A stretch of 64,000 bases of DNA, taken from positions 496,001 through 560,000 of the forward strand of contig NZ_VKKZ01000019.1 of the NCBI RefSeq assembly GCF_008271745.1. Reading direction: 5' to 3'. The position numbers were made by a program, and so were the translations under genes. This document shows positions 52,801-58,718 of the stretch, piece by piece. How positions within the stretch are numbered: the first letter of the stretch is position 1; each line of letters starts with the position of its first letter. The notes beneath the pieces were generated by a model that was not told the DNA's origin, searched no databases, and saw only the letters and a program-made list of their open reading frames with translations. This DNA comes from Rufibacter glacialis (GTDB taxonomy: Bacteria > Bacteroidota > Bacteroidia > Cytophagales > Hymenobacteraceae).

Positions 52801-53150
52801 TAAGGGTTTCTGGGTTCTAAAATCCTGCCAGGGTTTAACGCGCTGGGCTAATGGGTGCCTCTGGTTTTCAGCCTGTTTTTTGAGAATCGTACTATTTCTG
52901 GTTCCTGGTCTTTGCCACCTAGGTTCCTGTTTCTCCCTTATGGCTCCATTGCGGTGTTACCTCCCTTATGATCCTTAGAGAGGTTTTTTTCAGTTTTTGT
53001 CACTAGTAGGGTAGAGGAGACGCTTAGCAATGAAGGTGGCGGCGCATCCCGTGGTGGCAGTGAGATTTCCCTTGCCTTTTAGACCCTGATAATAACCAGT
53101 TGGGTTTTGAGGCTATTTTTTCAAAAAACCTCCTTTTTCTGAACTTTAGT
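52801..53150. other. Non-coding stretch before the export operon
   Basis: About 350 bp without a gene I can support. It includes one unpaired hairpin-family arm (AGCCTGTTTT near 52868) and a weak GAGG..CCTC pairing near 53108-53132. Confidence 0.45.
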
Positions 53151-53206
53151 AACAGTATCTGTATTGTGTGCAATAGTATTACTATTAACTTTGATGGTAA
53201 TAGTAT
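53151..53206 (+). promoter_or_regulatory. Promoter and operator of the TetR-ABC-HlyD-TolC operon
   Basis: -33 TTG at 53164-53166 and -7 TAACTTTG at 53186-53193, spacing 19 nt. The dyad AATAGTATTACTATT (53172-53186) fills the spacer and touches the -7 box. Related sequences AACAGTATCTGTATT (53151-53165) and AATAGTATTTAT (53199-53210) flank it. Such an arrangement is classical for autorepression by the TetR protein encoded 31 nt downstream. Confidence 0.7.
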
Positions 53207-53236
53207 TTATCCTCCACCGGGAGTTTATCAAAGCCC

Positions 53237-53941
53237 ATGAGCACGACCATAAAGATCCAGTTAAACGAAAAGCTATTCCTGCGCGATCCAGAGCAGACCG
53301 AGTTAGGGCGGACCATCTTCAAGGAAAGCATCCGGTTGATAGATGACCTGGGTTTTGAGCACTTCACCTTTAAAAAGCTGGCCCAGCAGATCTCCTCCAC
53401 GGAGGCCTCCATTTACCGGTATTTTGAAAACAAGCATAAGTTGCTGCTGTACCTGGTGTCATGGTACTGGAACTGGCTGGATTACCGCATCAGCTACCAA
53501 ACCCACAACGTCTCAGATGCCACCCAAAAGCTGAAGACCTTCATCGCCATTTTGGCGGAGCATGAAATGGCCAAGCCCTTGGGTACTGACATAGACGTAA
53601 ATGCGTTGGGGCGCATTGTGATCATGGAAGCTTCCAAGGCTTACCTTACCAAAGAGGTGGACAGCAATAACCAGGACGGGCTGTTCCAGGACTATAAAAA
53701 CCTGTGCCACAAGATGGCTTTGGTGGTGTTGGAGGTAAACCCTCGTTATCCTTTTCCGCATGCCCTGGTGAGCACCCTCTTTGAGACCGCCCGCAAACAA
53801 ATGTTCTTTGCCCAGCACCTGCCTTCCCTCACCGAGGTGAAAGTAGCCGGCCACGGGCACAACAGCCTCGCTGATTTCCTGAACCACCTGGCATTCACAT
53901 TGGTTGGCCATGTGCCGGAAACCCTTGAAACTACCCGTTGA
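53237..53941 (+). CDS. TetR/AcrR-family regulator of the export operon
   Basis: A 234-aa repressor. The N-terminal HTH shows ESIRLIDDLGFEHFTFKKLA and QQISSTEASIYRYFENKHKL, a near-canonical TetR recognition helix (SIYRYF for the usual xxYYHF). The ligand domain is helical (LKTFIAILAEHEMAKPLG and so on), rich in aromatics. It is the first gene of a four-gene unit, 5 nt before the ABC gene, and the dyads in its promoter suggest autoregulation. The inducer is unknown. Confidence 0.92.
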   Translation: MSTTIKIQLNEKLFLRDPEQTELGRTIFKESIRLIDDLGFEHFTFKKLAQQISSTEASIYRYFENKHKLLLYLVSWYWNWLDYRISYQTHNVSDATQKLKTFIAILAEHEMAKPLGTDIDVNALGRIVIMEASKAYLTKEVDSNNQDGLFQDYKNLCHKMALVVLEVNPRYPFPHALVSTLFETARKQMFFAQHLPSLTEVKVAGHGHNSLADFLNHLAFTLVGHVPETLETTR

Positions 53942-53946
53942 ATTGT

Positions 53947-55671
53947 ATGGCTACTGATAAAACAACTGCCCCCACTCCCTTCCAGCGCCTGCTGGAGTTG
54001 CTTGGCTCTGAGCGGAAGGTGATTACCTACATCTACCTGTATGCTATTTTCTCTGGGCTGGTGAGCCTGTCCCTGCCCTTGGGCATCCAGAGCCTTATTG
54101 GCTTTGTCTCCGGCGGGCAACTGGTGACCTCCGTCTCCGTCCTGATTTTCTTCATTGTGCTGGGTGTGGTGATCGTGGGCGGCCTGCAGGTGATGCAGCT
54201 TTCGTTGGTGGAGCATATCCAGCAGCGCATCTTCGCTACCAAGGCTTTCCAGTTTACCACCCATCTCACCAAAATAAAGGGGAATCAGCTGGCGGCCCAT
54301 AACCTGCCCGAGATGATGAACCGATTCTTTGACGTGGTTTCCCTGCAGAAAGGGCTGGCGAAGATCCTCACTGATTTCTCGGCGGCGGCCATCCAGATCG
54401 TTTTCGGGCTGATCCTGCTCTCGTTCTACCATTCCTACTTCATCTTCTTTGGGCTAGTGCTGATGGCGCTGCTGGTGCTCATGTTGCGGCTTACCAGCCC
54501 CAAGGGCATGCGGACCAGCCTGGAGGAGTCAAAATATAAATACCGCCTGGTGCATTGGCTCGAAGAGATGGCGCGCAGTATTCCGGTTTTCAAATCGGCC
54601 TCGCATGAGAAGCTTTCCCTGACCAAGACAGATGCCTACACCAGCGGATACCTAAAAGCCAGAGACGCCCACTTCAAGGTCCTGATCTCGCAGTACATCG
54701 GTTTTGTGGGGTTCAAGACCGTGATCACGGCCGGGCTGCTGCTGCTGGGTAGCCTGCTGCTGGTAAACCGGGAGATCAACCTGGGCCAGTTTGTAGCCTC
54801 AGAGATCATCATCATCCTTATCATCAACGCCGTAGAGAAGCTGCTGGTCAAGCTGGATGTGGTGTATGATGTGCTCACCAGCCTGGAGAAACTTGGAGGC
54901 GTGACGGATCTGCCCATGGAAGAAAACCGGGATCAGGCCCAGGTGGCGCCCACCTTCGCCCAAGGGGTGACCCTGCAGGTGCGGGACTTGGCCTTTAGGT
55001 ACGCAGGTTCCGCGAAACCTGCCTTGCAAGGGGTGAACCTGAGCGTGGGGGCTGGGGAGAAGGTGGGGCTGGCGGGTGCCGAGGAAGCCGGCCGGTCTAC
55101 TTTGCTGCAGGTGCTGGCGGGCATTCTGCCTGAGTATGAAGGCACCGTTGTCGTCAACGGCTTGTCTTTGCGGGACTATAACCCCGAGGCCCTGCAAGAG
55201 CAGATAGGCTTTTACCTGCTGCCCAGCTTCCTGTTTGAGGGTTCCATTCTGGAGAACATCACCATGGGGCAGCCTGAGGTGAACCTGGAAGGCGTGTTGT
55301 GGGCTTTGGAGGCCGTGGAGCTGTCTGATTACGTGCACGCGCAGCCGGAGGGGCTCTACACCCTGCTCCGCAGCCATTCCCCCAACATTCCGGCGGGTAT
55401 CTCCCAGCGCCTGGCCCTGGCCCGCAGCATTGCCCGCCGACCTAAACTGTTGCTGCTGGATAATTTTCTACCGGCGGTGAACAAGGCCTTGCGGGAGCGC
55501 ATTGGCCGCCGTCTGCTGGCGGCGGAAATGCCTTGGACGGTGGTGGTTCTTTCCCAGGATCCGGCCATTCTGCGGCTTTGCCACCGGGTGGTGTTGCTGG
55601 AAAATGGCCAGGTGCAGCGGGAAGTGGCAGGAAAAGAAGTAACGGTAGAAGAATTACACTTTCTGGTATAA
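53947..55671 (+). CDS. ABC exporter half-transporter with a degenerate (pseudo-ATPase) nucleotide-binding domain
   Basis: A 574-aa membrane protein. Five to six helices (about 25-310) form an ABC type-1 exporter fold, and an NBD-like domain occupies ~340-574. The domain keeps the aromatic A-loop (FRYAGSAKPALQGV) and overall strand pattern but has lost each catalytic motif. Walker A is GAEEAGRST (377-385), with Arg383 for Lys. The Q-loop Gln is Leu425, and the signature is IPAGI (481-485) for LSGGQ. Walker B is LLLLDN with Asn506 for Glu, the D-loop is PAVN, and the H-loop His is Gln537. There is no N-terminal peptidase domain. The frame is intact with normal codon use, so it is not a decaying gene. 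It probably serves as the inner-membrane part of a HlyD/TolC system; how it is energised is unknown. Confidence 0.9.
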   Translation: MATDKTTAPTPFQRLLELLGSERKVITYIYLYAIFSGLVSLSLPLGIQSLIGFVSGGQLVTSVSVLIFFIVLGVVIVGGLQVMQLSLVEHIQQRIFATKAFQFTTHLTKIKGNQLAAHNLPEMMNRFFDVVSLQKGLAKILTDFSAAAIQIVFGLILLSFYHSYFIFFGLVLMALLVLMLRLTSPKGMRTSLEESKYKYRLVHWLEEMARSIPVFKSASHEKLSLTKTDAYTSGYLKARDAHFKVLISQYIGFVGFKTVITAGLLLLGSLLLVNREINLGQFVASEIIIILIINAVEKLLVKLDVVYDVLTSLEKLGGVTDLPMEENRDQAQVAPTFAQGVTLQVRDLAFRYAGSAKPALQGVNLSVGAGEKVGLAGAEEAGRSTLLQVLAGILPEYEGTVVVNGLSLRDYNPEALQEQIGFYLLPSFLFEGSILENITMGQPEVNLEGVLWALEAVELSDYVHAQPEGLYTLLRSHSPNIPAGISQRLALARSIARRPKLLLLDNFLPAVNKALRERIGRRLLAAEMPWTVVVLSQDPAILRLCHRVVLLENGQVQREVAGKEVTVEELHFLV

Positions 55672-55674
55672 AAA

Positions 55675-57051
55675 ATGGCAAAGCAACCGCAACCCCAGGC
55701 TGTTCCCCAGGCCTGGGAACAGTTTGATTCCTTCCGGCTCTTAAGCAAGCCCCGCCTGGCCAAGGTGATGGCCTACTGGTGCATCGGTTTGTTTGGGCTG
55801 CTGTTCGTGGCTTCCTGGTTTCCCTGGACCCAGAACATCCGCTCGGCCGGTTCTGTGACCACCCTGCAGCCGCAGGACCGCCCGCAAACGGTGCAGAGCA
55901 CCATTGCCGGGCGCATTGAGCAGTGGCGCGTGCAGGAAGGGCAAACCGTCAAGAAAGGCGATACCCTGGTGACCTTGTCAGAGGTGAAGGAGAAATACTT
56001 TGACCCCCAACTGCTGGCCCGTATAGGCGAACAACTTGAAGCCAAGGAAGGAAGCCTGCAAGCCAACCAGGAGAAAGCCGATGCGCTGAATGCCCAGATT
56101 GCCGCCTTGCAGGAGGGGCTGCAGTTCTCGCTGCAGAAAGCCCGAAACAAGATAAGCCAGGCCCGCCTGAAGATACAGAGTGACAGCGCTGATCTGGTGG
56201 CCATCACGGCGGAATACGCCGTTGCCGAAGCCCAGTATGCCCGCCAGGAAAAGCTTTTCCAGCAGGGCCTGAAATCCCTGACCGAACTGGAGAGCCGCCG
56301 CCTGAAATTCCAGGAGATGCAGGCCAAACGGCAGAGCATGCAGAACAAGCTCAGCATCAGCCGCAATGAGCAGCAGAATGCCCGTCTGGAGCTTTCTTCC
56401 CTTAACGCCGAGTATCAGGACAAAATCTCCAAAGCCCGCTCTGACCTGAACGCCACTCTGGCCTACCTGAATGATACCCGCGGCGAAATCTCCAAGGTGC
56501 GCAATGAGTACGCCAACACCCAGATCCGGAATTCTTTCTACCAGATTACCGCCCCACAGGACGGGGTGGTGGTGCGCACCCTCAAAGCCGGAATTGGCGA
56601 AACCATGAAGGAAGGCGAGGTCTTGTGCAGCATCATGCCCTCCAATCCGGCCTTGGCCGTGCAACTGTACGTGGACCCCATGGACATTCCGCTGCTGGAC
56701 GTAGGCCGCAACGTGCGGCTGCAATTTGAAGGCTGGCCCGCCCTGGTTTTCTCCGGCTGGCCGAACGTAGGGTTTGGGACCTTTGGGGGAAAAGTGGCCG
56801 TGATTGACAACCTGGACAGCCAGGGCAAATACCGCATTCTGGTGGTGCCAGACCCGCAGGATACGCCGTGGCCCCAGGCCATCCGGATGGGGTCTGGGGC
56901 CTATGGCTGGGCCATGCTCAACGACGTGCCCATCTGGTATGAACTGTGGCGGCAGATGAACGCTTTCCCGCCAGACTATCTGGGGGCCGGCGAAAAGGCT
57001 GCCAAGGAAGGGAAAGAAGCCAAAACGGGTACAGAAGGAGGCGACAAATGA
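55675..57051 (+). CDS. HlyD-family periplasmic adaptor
   Basis: A 458-aa membrane fusion protein. One TM at about 32-51 (VMAYWCIGLFGLLFVASWFP) is followed by a split biotinyl-lipoyl domain (TIAGRIEQWRVQEGQTVKKG and, after the hairpin, ITAPQDGVVVRTLKAGIGET) and a coiled-coil hairpin of about 190 residues (115-300; LESRRLKFQEMQAKRQSMQN). A beta-barrel segment comes next. It would bridge the ABC protein and the TolC-like channel. The start is 3 nt after the ABC stop. The C-terminal tail GEKAAKEGKEAKTGTEGGDK is charged and low-complexity. Confidence 0.93.
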   Translation: MAKQPQPQAVPQAWEQFDSFRLLSKPRLAKVMAYWCIGLFGLLFVASWFPWTQNIRSAGSVTTLQPQDRPQTVQSTIAGRIEQWRVQEGQTVKKGDTLVTLSEVKEKYFDPQLLARIGEQLEAKEGSLQANQEKADALNAQIAALQEGLQFSLQKARNKISQARLKIQSDSADLVAITAEYAVAEAQYARQEKLFQQGLKSLTELESRRLKFQEMQAKRQSMQNKLSISRNEQQNARLELSSLNAEYQDKISKARSDLNATLAYLNDTRGEISKVRNEYANTQIRNSFYQITAPQDGVVVRTLKAGIGETMKEGEVLCSIMPSNPALAVQLYVDPMDIPLLDVGRNVRLQFEGWPALVFSGWPNVGFGTFGGKVAVIDNLDSQGKYRILVVPDPQDTPWPQAIRMGSGAYGWAMLNDVPIWYELWRQMNAFPPDYLGAGEKAAKEGKEAKTGTEGGDK

Positions 57052-58496
57052 GGTACAGGAATCGGTTGACGGGATGGGTAGCGGGTAGTTTTCTGCTCCT
57101 CCTGGCCCACGTGTCTGCCGCGGCCGACAGTACCGCGGTTTTGACCATCCAGGACCTGCTGGGCAAGGTGGCCGCGCACCATCCAGTGGTGCGGCAGGCG
57201 CAACTGCTCCCAGAGCAGGCCCGGCAGGAGATCCGCATGGCCCGGGGCGCTTTTGACCCGGTGTTGGGCTCCAAGTACTACAGCAAGGAATATGAGGGGA
57301 AAAACTACTATTCCCTCTGGGACAATGTGCTGAAAGTACCCCTTTGGGTAGGGGAGCTAAAAGCGGGCTATGAGCGCAACCGCGGGGCCTATGTGAACCC
57401 GGAAAACACCACGCCCTCGCAGGGACTCCATTACGTGGGTATTTCCGTGCCCCTGGCCCAGGGCTTGCTGCTAGACGAACGGCGAGCCACCCTGTTGCAG
57501 GCGAAACAGGCCCAAGAGATGGCCGAGGCGGACCGCGTAAAAACGATTAATAAGTTGCTCTTTGAGGCAGCCAAAGCCTATTGGGACTGGGCCTACGCCC
57601 ACCAACGGTGGCAGTTGCTGGACCAGGGCTTACAGCTGGCCCAGGTCCGGCTGCAGGCCGTGCGGGAGCGGGTGCGGCAGGGCGATTTAGCCGCCATTGA
57701 CTCCGTGGAAGCCGTGATGGAAGTGCAGAACCGGCAGGCCATGATTCAGCAGGCCCTTACGGAAAACCAGAACGCGGCGCTGCTGGTCTCCAATTTTCTA
57801 TGGACTCAAGATACCACGCCGCTGGAGATTCCCGCCGGGGTGTGGCCTTCCCTGCTGGGAACGGAGGTGCAGTCCCTTTCTCCGACTGACCTGGCCGCCC
57901 TGCGCACCAACGCCCAGGAGCGCCATCCGGAGGTGGCTAAACTACAGGCCAAGGCCAGGCAACTGGACGTGGAGCGGCGGTTTGGGCAGAACAAACTTTG
58001 GCCCAAGCTCAATTTGGAATACAACCTCCTTGGCCCTGGGAACGCCTGGGGCAACCGGTGGTTGGAAGGGGGCTACGCGGCCAATAACTACAAGGTGGGG
58101 GCTAGTTTCAGCCTGCCGGTGTTCCTGCGCCAGGAGCGGGGCAAGCTGCAGGTGACCCGGTTGAAGCTGAACGCCACCCGGCTGGACCTGCAGCAGACCA
58201 CCCGGGAAAACGTGAACCTGGTGCAGGCGGCGTTCAACGAGCGCCAGCAGCTGGAAGGCCAGATCACGCTTCAGGAGCAAATCATTCAAAACAGCAATCT
58301 TCTGCGCAACGGGGAGCAGCAGCGGTTTGAGAACGGCGAAAGCTCCCTGTTTCTGCTAAACACCCGGGAAATGAACCTGCTTACCCAACAGCTGAAACTC
58401 TTTGAACTAAAGGCCAAGTACGGCAAAGCAAAATATTACCTCCAGTGGGCCGCCGGAGAGCTGCGGGCAGAATCAGCGGGGGAAATCCCGCGTTAA
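57048..58496 (+). CDS. TolC-family outer-membrane channel
   Basis: A 482-aa exported protein (signal peptide LTGWVAGSFLLLLAHVSAAA). Its two-fold repeated helical hairpins are typical of TolC/OEP proteins: FEAAKAYWDWAYAHQRWQLL then QARLQAVRERV-like helices, AAIDSVEAVMEVQNRQAM, and NGESSLFLLNTREMNLLTQQ at the end of the second repeat. It forms the outer-membrane exit of the tripartite system. ATGA overlap of 4 nt with the adaptor stop indicates translational coupling. The frame upstream to 56946 lies inside the adaptor gene and is not used. Confidence 0.92.
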   Translation: MRYRNRLTGWVAGSFLLLLAHVSAAADSTAVLTIQDLLGKVAAHHPVVRQAQLLPEQARQEIRMARGAFDPVLGSKYYSKEYEGKNYYSLWDNVLKVPLWVGELKAGYERNRGAYVNPENTTPSQGLHYVGISVPLAQGLLLDERRATLLQAKQAQEMAEADRVKTINKLLFEAAKAYWDWAYAHQRWQLLDQGLQLAQVRLQAVRERVRQGDLAAIDSVEAVMEVQNRQAMIQQALTENQNAALLVSNFLWTQDTTPLEIPAGVWPSLLGTEVQSLSPTDLAALRTNAQERHPEVAKLQAKARQLDVERRFGQNKLWPKLNLEYNLLGPGNAWGNRWLEGGYAANNYKVGASFSLPVFLRQERGKLQVTRLKLNATRLDLQQTTRENVNLVQAAFNERQQLEGQITLQEQIIQNSNLLRNGEQQRFENGESSLFLLNTREMNLLTQQLKLFELKAKYGKAKYYLQWAAGELRAESAGEIPR

Positions 58497-58560
58497 CCGC
58501 GGCCCCAGAAGTCGGCTTAATCAGATAGGTTTTGTAGCGAGATCTCAAGGCAGGCTGAAT

Positions 58561-58587
58561 TATGCCTGTTTTTCTGAAAACAGGCTA
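58561..58587 (+). terminator. Hairpin after the TolC gene
   Basis: TATGCCTGTTTTT, CTG, AAAACAGGCTA: a hairpin-family member 65 nt after the stop. Confidence 0.55.
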
Positions 58588-58718
58588 TAAAAGTCTCTGC
58601 CATCTTGCGGAACCTGTACTCTCTTGGTTTCCTCCTGTTCCCTGGGCCACCAAACGGAAAAAGGGATCACCTGTTGATTGGAGTGCATGAAAGTAGGCTC
58701 CTGTTTGGTTTCAGGGCG

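Follow-up and report, generated by a model that had tools for sequence, protein, structure and literature searches.

The window analysed here, a 64,000-nucleotide (nt) stretch of the Rufibacter glacialis genome (contig NZ_VKKZ01000019.1, positions 496,001–560,000, forward strand), carries an operon for what is probably a HlyB/HlyD/TolC-like exporter spanning the envelope; its inner-membrane component would derive from an ATP-binding cassette (ABC) protein, no longer hydrolyse ATP and perhaps be driven by an ion-motive force. We hold this reading with moderate confidence. In the sequences, loss of the catalytic residues is clade-wide, and the transmembrane domain (TMD), HlyD and TolC have been retained; one clade dropped the nucleotide-binding domain (NBD) and still has the operon. 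The gene set has the architecture of a tripartite exporter but, at the level of sequence, lacks the catalytically competent NBD that an ATP-driven ABC exporter needs. What powers it and what it carries we infer.

The central gene encodes an ABC-exporter-like inner-membrane protein of 574 amino acids (aa) with a pseudo-ATPase NBD (53947..55671, ATG start; positions refer to the window, residues to the 574-aa frame, and all features lie on the plus strand). Five hallmarks were scored: Walker A Lys, Q-loop Gln, an S-x-G-Q/E signature, Walker B Glu and H-loop His. The protein keeps none of them. Within the degenerate NBD (residues 339–574, 54961..55668), the Walker A motif reads GAEEAGRST (residues 377–385, 55075..55101), with the Lys replaced by R383; L425 (55219..55221) stands at the Q-loop position, IPAGI (residues 481–485, 55387..55401) replaces LSGGQ, Walker B is LLLLDNF with N506 instead of Glu (55447..55467), and Q537 (55555..55557) occupies the position of the H-loop His. 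All five substitutions had been named, together with an intact reading frame, in the original prediction made from the letters of the window, and both statements were borne out. The NBD still matches ABC_tran, with 60.7 bits against a cut-off of 25. An AlphaFold model of the protein is a full half-transporter (predicted local distance difference test score, pLDDT, 83.9; predicted template modelling score, pTM, 0.72), and a Foldseek search with it showed resemblance to TmrAB, the PCAT1 core and HlyB (TMq 0.87–0.90). Among six canonical control ABC proteins from the same genome, read in the same alignment, five keep all five hallmarks and one keeps four; a seventh control (L166), with misaligned motif columns, was left out. 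Sequence analysis thus supported the pseudo-ATPase reading of the window protein.

Sampling of the phylum detected family members in 99 of 392 genomes (E ≤ 1e-60; three candidates scored per genome, 80 of 100 matches read), and sampling of the order in 245 of 292 (E ≤ 1e-50; up to seven candidates scored per genome, all figures being those among the matches listed). Named Bacteroidota loci were the best 80 of 483 confirmed. HlyD was present at all 80 of these, TolC at 79 and a TetR homolog at 66; TolC is lacking only at L055, where the locus is short. When the unnamed loci were added to the named ones, the set held, besides the window itself, 129 NBD-bearing rows of clade B, to which the window belongs, 24 rows of the deeper clade A and 6 rows without an NBD; L158, a split or partial frame, was left out of the counts. 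In clade B, 11 of the 129 NBDs keep no hallmark, 100 keep one and 18 keep two; none keeps more. The hallmark most often retained is Walker A Lys (118/129). Clade A members keep one to four hallmarks (four in 5 members, five in none), mainly Walker A Lys (24/24), Walker B Glu (22/24) and H-loop His (18/24), and all eight Rufibacter-group copies, the window one included, keep none. This series runs as a gradient from partly canonical to dead. The best 120 database homologs gave a similar picture (no hallmark in 17, one in 101, two in 2), with Walker A Lys present in 102 and Walker B Glu, H-loop His and Q-loop Gln in one each. Canonical close homologs, which according to the original prediction would have spoken for a single decaying allele, were looked for: a canonical-like signature was found in 0 of these 120, and no more than two hallmarks were seen in any. 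The homolog comparison proposed there thus returned loss of the same residues throughout the clade and ratios of nonsynonymous to synonymous substitution rates (dN/dS) below 1, and the pseudo-ATPase reading came out of it stronger than it had been put.

Seven clade-B members (L018, L042, L053, L060, L064, L068, and L069) have the H-loop His without the signature or the Walker B Glu. One relative (L141:4115-5773, genome G045) has a tail of NBD length in which a P-loop is not recognisable, perhaps an intermediate between a dead and a missing NBD. An N-terminal extension of about 150–260 aa was observed in L149:1794-4115, L097:4651-7149, and L114:1967-4153. The extension of these members of about 690–840 aa had no Pfam match above the cut-off; by eye, it might be a degenerate C39-like domain.

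Constraint has shifted to the membrane domain (residues 1–330, 53947..54936, Pfam ABC_membrane), the conserved part of the family. The NBD was the more identical domain in only 2 of 8385 clade-B pairs (mean identity 54.5% for the TMD and 36.0% for the NBD). For 30 orthologs of a canonical MsbA-like exporter from the same order, used as a control, the opposite was observed: the NBD was more identical in 424 of 435 pairs (72.1% for the NBD, 62.4% for the TMD). Clade A lies in between, with 70 of 276 pairs and means of 41.2% for the NBD and 48.6% for the TMD. In the Rufibacter group, dN/dS was 0.003–0.10 for the TMD and 0.04–0.31 for the NBD (8 genes, 28 pairs), values which are rough, many dS being above 1. 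Taken from these sequence comparisons, the NBD is evolving faster than the TMD, yet is constrained.

A further group of relatives consists of the TMD only. Such frames made up 6 of the 100 listed phylum matches, each of 332–339 aa and followed by HlyD and TolC. The top matches of the order search contained at least 55 of them (334–394 aa, 53 genomes, counted by eye), and when a TMD-only query was used for a database search, the best 120 of 1824 matches were 316–356 aa long, many of them from named Hymenobacter species. All 26 loci read in detail encode a TMD protein of 330–374 aa together with HlyD and TolC, the aligned HlyD starting 52–134 nt past the TMD stop; no NBD was present in the TMD-only frame at any of the 26. 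These genes are under purifying selection (dN/dS 0.03–0.23, 31 close pairs). The modelled TMD-only protein folds like PCAT1 and like HlyB in the HlyB/HlyD complex (Foldseek; TMq 0.86 for HlyB, 8dck). Quick trees without bootstrap placed the TMD-only sequences in one group, both for the TMD (117 rows, 12 of them TMD-only; SH-aLRT 99) and for HlyD (78 rows, 13 TMD-only; SH-aLRT 99). The group is nested among degenerate members and, in the TMD tree, its sister L114 carries a degenerate NBD, so that a single NBD loss within the degenerate clade is the simplest history. Two NBD-less proteins (P0163 and P0201), filed as Microvirga and Janthinobacterium, stand among Hymenobacter sequences and are probably mislabelled records.

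The distribution of the two forms was followed in genus g2, which we infer to be Hymenobacter because a protein of genome G166 is 86% identical to one of H. cellulosivorans. Of its 39 sampled genomes, 22 have the TMD-only form, 12 the NBD form (scored by search, the frame length being seen for 5 of the 12), none both, and 5 neither at the threshold used. For this distribution, the Fisher p was 1.6e-6, uncorrected for relatedness.

We propose that a dimer of the TMD with HlyD and TolC would form a complete transporter, in which the NBD left in the window protein may be a docked structural or regulatory remnant. The ion-motive force would drive export, with HlyD and TolC as the conduit, perhaps as in the engineered NBD-less forms of LmrA and MsbA. 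Candidates for the coupling are conserved charged residues of the TMD: the acidic E286 in predicted transmembrane helix 6 (TM6; 54802..54804), D308, K298, and K315. E286 is conserved with and without an NBD, in 130 of 131 clade-B rows, 12 of 12 TMD-only rows and 23 of 24 clade-A rows; the position aligned to it in the solved relative ComA is Asn. D308, K298, K315, E89, E194, K198, and H242 are likewise conserved in nearly all clade-B rows and in all 12 TMD-only rows. In the consulted parts of the respective reports, NBD-less LmrA (LmrA-MD) is an ethidium–proton symporter that needs a TM6 carboxylate for proton-coupled transport (PMC6155054), and NBD-less MsbA (MsbA-MD) exports ethidium under a pH gradient at a lower efficiency than full-length MsbA (PMC4979069).

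Alternatively, the membrane protein could be paired in trans with the product of a gene elsewhere, either an active ABC half-transporter or a stand-alone ATPase that is shared, which would also supply the NBD to the TMD-only forms; the exporter would then still be ATP-driven. We regard this as unlikely, but worth keeping in view. The window genome has many other ABC matches (49 to ABC_tran) that could provide a partner; in the flanks searched at the 80 named loci, a second similar ABC gene was seen only at L063 and L080 and was lacking at the other 78. The degenerate half of known heterodimeric exporters keeps a usable signature, and one site stays active. Here the signature, Walker B, H-loop and Q-loop are lost in one chain; both sites of a heterodimer would thus be noncanonical, and the window NBD could not complete the site of a partner. 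If an ATPase acted in trans, the coupling helices should stay conserved in the TMD-only forms. After thinning at 80% identity, 19 TMD-only and 34 NBD-bearing sequences were compared in 314 nine-residue windows. The largest relaxation in the TMD-only forms fell on residues 214–223, which take in the latter half of coupling helix 2 and what directly follows it, and this stretch was again the most relaxed at three other thinning thresholds. The helix itself (residues 212–217, 54580..54597), a short one in the AlphaFold model, is presumably the NBD-docking coupling helix 2, as in other ABC exporters. Its F215 is the most relaxed residue, being Phe in 91 of 91 NBD-bearing rows vs. 5 of 26 TMD-only rows; the invariance in the former would also suit a partner in trans. 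Coupling helix 1 (101–120) is still conserved and was not relaxed in the TMD-only forms (entropy 1.00 vs. 1.43), and a TM4 stretch (179–188) as well as single residues 183, 204, and 207 were relaxed too. An NBD-bearing gene was labelled near 5 of the 26 TMD-only operons, and these are of two unlike kinds. At three loci of genus g2, a canonical ABC half-transporter of 611–619 aa lies three genes after TolC (L199:986-2833, L200:419-2278, and L203:745-2580); it is ortholog-like to L082 of the window genome (62–63% identity) and is a candidate partner. At L086 and L208 (genus g10), a canonical stand-alone ATPase of 282 aa is encoded one or two genes past TolC. Near the TMD-only operons, other gene families reach at most 7 of 26 loci. 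On this sequence evidence, an NBD that is absent appears a better reading of the TMD-only forms than a partner in trans. Of the options offered by the original prediction, pairing with an active subunit is accordingly disfavoured by the lost signature and the relaxed coupling helix 2; the better fits are a gated channel and an exporter powered in another way.

The system might also serve as a scaffold or passive conduit that nucleotide or ligand gates; the NBD forms would bind ATP without hydrolysis and gate the HlyD–TolC channel in the manner of SUR and CFTR. Such a passive gated conduit is possible but in our estimate improbable. Retention of Walker A Lys in 118 of 129 clade-B NBDs, an NBD fold maintained in the model and dN/dS below 1 are what this explanation would expect. 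Arg replaces that Lys in all eight Rufibacter-group copies, L141 lacks a recognisable P-loop, and the NBD-less clade does without the domain altogether; nucleotide gating therefore cannot be a mechanism common to the family. That the operon is decaying in the window genome, a pseudogene in progress, could be suspected from the loss of all five hallmarks in this copy; intact frames, dN/dS well below 1, the same losses throughout the clade and a conserved gene order and operator (see below) led us to reject a decaying allele, and we give it hardly any credence. Several observations weigh against the ion-driven exporter itself. One is that the sequence record of a passive conduit would look no different; others are the unrelaxed coupling helix 1, the additional relaxed positions and the half-transporter genes at 3 of the 26 TMD-only loci. 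The retained Walker A Lys and the purifying selection on the NBD indicate that this domain still does something, and, judging from their motifs, many relatives may bind nucleotide. A 576-aa NBD-bearing and a 337-aa NBD-less protein (P0046 and P0138) occur together in the species Hymenobacter tibetensis. The LmrA carboxylate E314 lies 74 residues before K388, which we take to be the Walker A Lys, and is by this spacing nearer to D308 than to E286; the match is loose, and an exact equivalence of E286 and E314 was not supported. In cells, full-length MsbA with a deleted Walker A Lys showed no ethidium efflux and the NBD-less form did, as far as the consulted part of the source goes (PMC4979069). 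A dead NBD is therefore not equal to no NBD, and as a precedent the truncations are closer to the NBD-less clade than to the window protein.

The operon runs from 53237 to 58496 in the order TetR, ABC, HlyD, and TolC, with junctions of +5, +3, and −4 nt. The tight packing and the spacings noted in the original prediction agree with our coordinates; the operon start given there, 53146, falls in upstream DNA, the TetR gene beginning at 53237 and a candidate operator lying in between. The regulator (53237..53941) has 234 aa and matches Pfam TetR_N with 28.9 bits. The HlyD-family periplasmic adaptor (55675..57051, 458 aa) matches Pfam HlyD_3 (43.6 bits), and the start of the TolC-family outer-membrane channel (57048..58496, 482 aa) overlaps the end of HlyD by ATGA; the longer frame 56946-58496 matches Pfam OEP with 119.8 bits. 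NCBIfam models of type I secretion were matched far under their cut-offs (LssB, 164.9 vs. 693.1 bits), and the adaptor reached 118.6 bits with type_I_hlyD, under the cut-off of 208.65. Named relatives of the window ABC protein are from Rufibacter (69–81% identity) and Nibribacter (74–76%).

The candidate TetR operator, AATAGTATTACTATT (53172..53186), is a 7-bp inverted repeat with a 1-nt spacer. A palindrome upstream of the operon is common to several Bacteroidota families. The form ATAGTANTNCTAT, which was chosen after viewing 18 of these same regions, was found upstream of TetR genes exactly in 50 of 110 cases and with at most one mismatch in 80 of 110, the window locus being counted twice; among 1857 random stretches there were no exact occurrences and 10 with at most one mismatch. 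A TetR gene stands at 8 of the 26 TMD-only loci, and all eight have the site (seven exactly, L213 with one mismatch), so the NBD-less version has the same operator where TetR adjoins. We suggest that TetR, bound to the palindrome at 53172-53186, would keep the operon repressed until released by a ligand, which may be the compound exported. A search for the regulon as a lead to the substrate returned one site: RATAGTAWTRCTATYA is the single exact 16-base occurrence in the 5.3 Mb window genome. Second operator sites in genomes G355 and G068, considered as substrate clues, were rejected, as they adjoin genes of other kinds (by eye).

Among the neighbours of the TMD-only operons, the commonest family, c4, resembles an RND pump by eye (L090, L091, L202, L205, L210, L213, and L216). 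At L210 and L213, the RND-like c4 gene and a HlyD-like gene stand beside a divergent TetR. An ABC-like open reading frame upstream in L153 was considered as a second ABC gene and rejected, being UvrA-like.

Taken as a history, these data tentatively suggest the natural conversion of a lineage of ABC exporters to trans-envelope export driven by ion-motive force: catalysis would have been lost first and then, in one lineage, the whole NBD, with the TMD, adaptor and outer-membrane channel held under strong selection; we consider this a possibility that may well prove wrong. If true, the family would represent a natural ATP-free 'ABC' transporter and a route from a primary to a secondary pump. Ion-coupled transport by ABC TMDs without an ATPase so far rests, in the portions of the sources consulted, on laboratory truncations of LmrA and MsbA. 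Within the family, related TMDs, adaptors and channels occur with a partly canonical, a dead or no NBD, a series provided by nature in which ATPase-free ion coupling becomes testable by comparison of members. The results further suggest that, for many Bacteroidota proteins, names such as 'peptidase domain-containing ABC transporter' are misleading. The open-access literature searched yielded no ABC exporter of Bacteroidota that is naturally NBD-less or a pseudo-ATPase throughout its family, which is weak evidence of absence.

Among known systems, LmrA-MD and MsbA-MD share with the NBD-less clade a TMD without an NBD, and ion-coupled export there needs charged membrane residues, according to the parts of the reports consulted (PMC6155054, PMC4979069). 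They differ in being laboratory truncations of active ATPases, whereas the forms described here are natural, widespread, tied to HlyD and TolC and known from sequence, and the window protein still has its NBD. The heterodimeric exporters TmrAB, TM287/288, and TAP have the same fold as the window protein (Foldseek), and together with PatAB they share the loss of the catalytic Glu, a hallmark of the degenerate site in the consulted part of the source (PMC7544095). In the window protein, all five hallmarks are lost in one chain, and most loci of the family lack an adjoining partner gene. HlyB/HlyD/TolC type I secretion systems and PCAT exporters are alike in the three-part gene set with HlyD and TolC family partners, and HlyB also in the TMD fold (TMq 0.86 for the NBD-less form against 8dck and 0.90 for the window protein), but the window protein and its clade have no intact catalytic site, and one clade has no NBD. 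EmrAB-TolC and similar tripartite pumps of the MFS and RND types combine an ion-driven inner-membrane pump with a HlyD-like adaptor and TolC; in the system described here, by contrast, the inner-membrane protein has the TMD fold of an ABC exporter.

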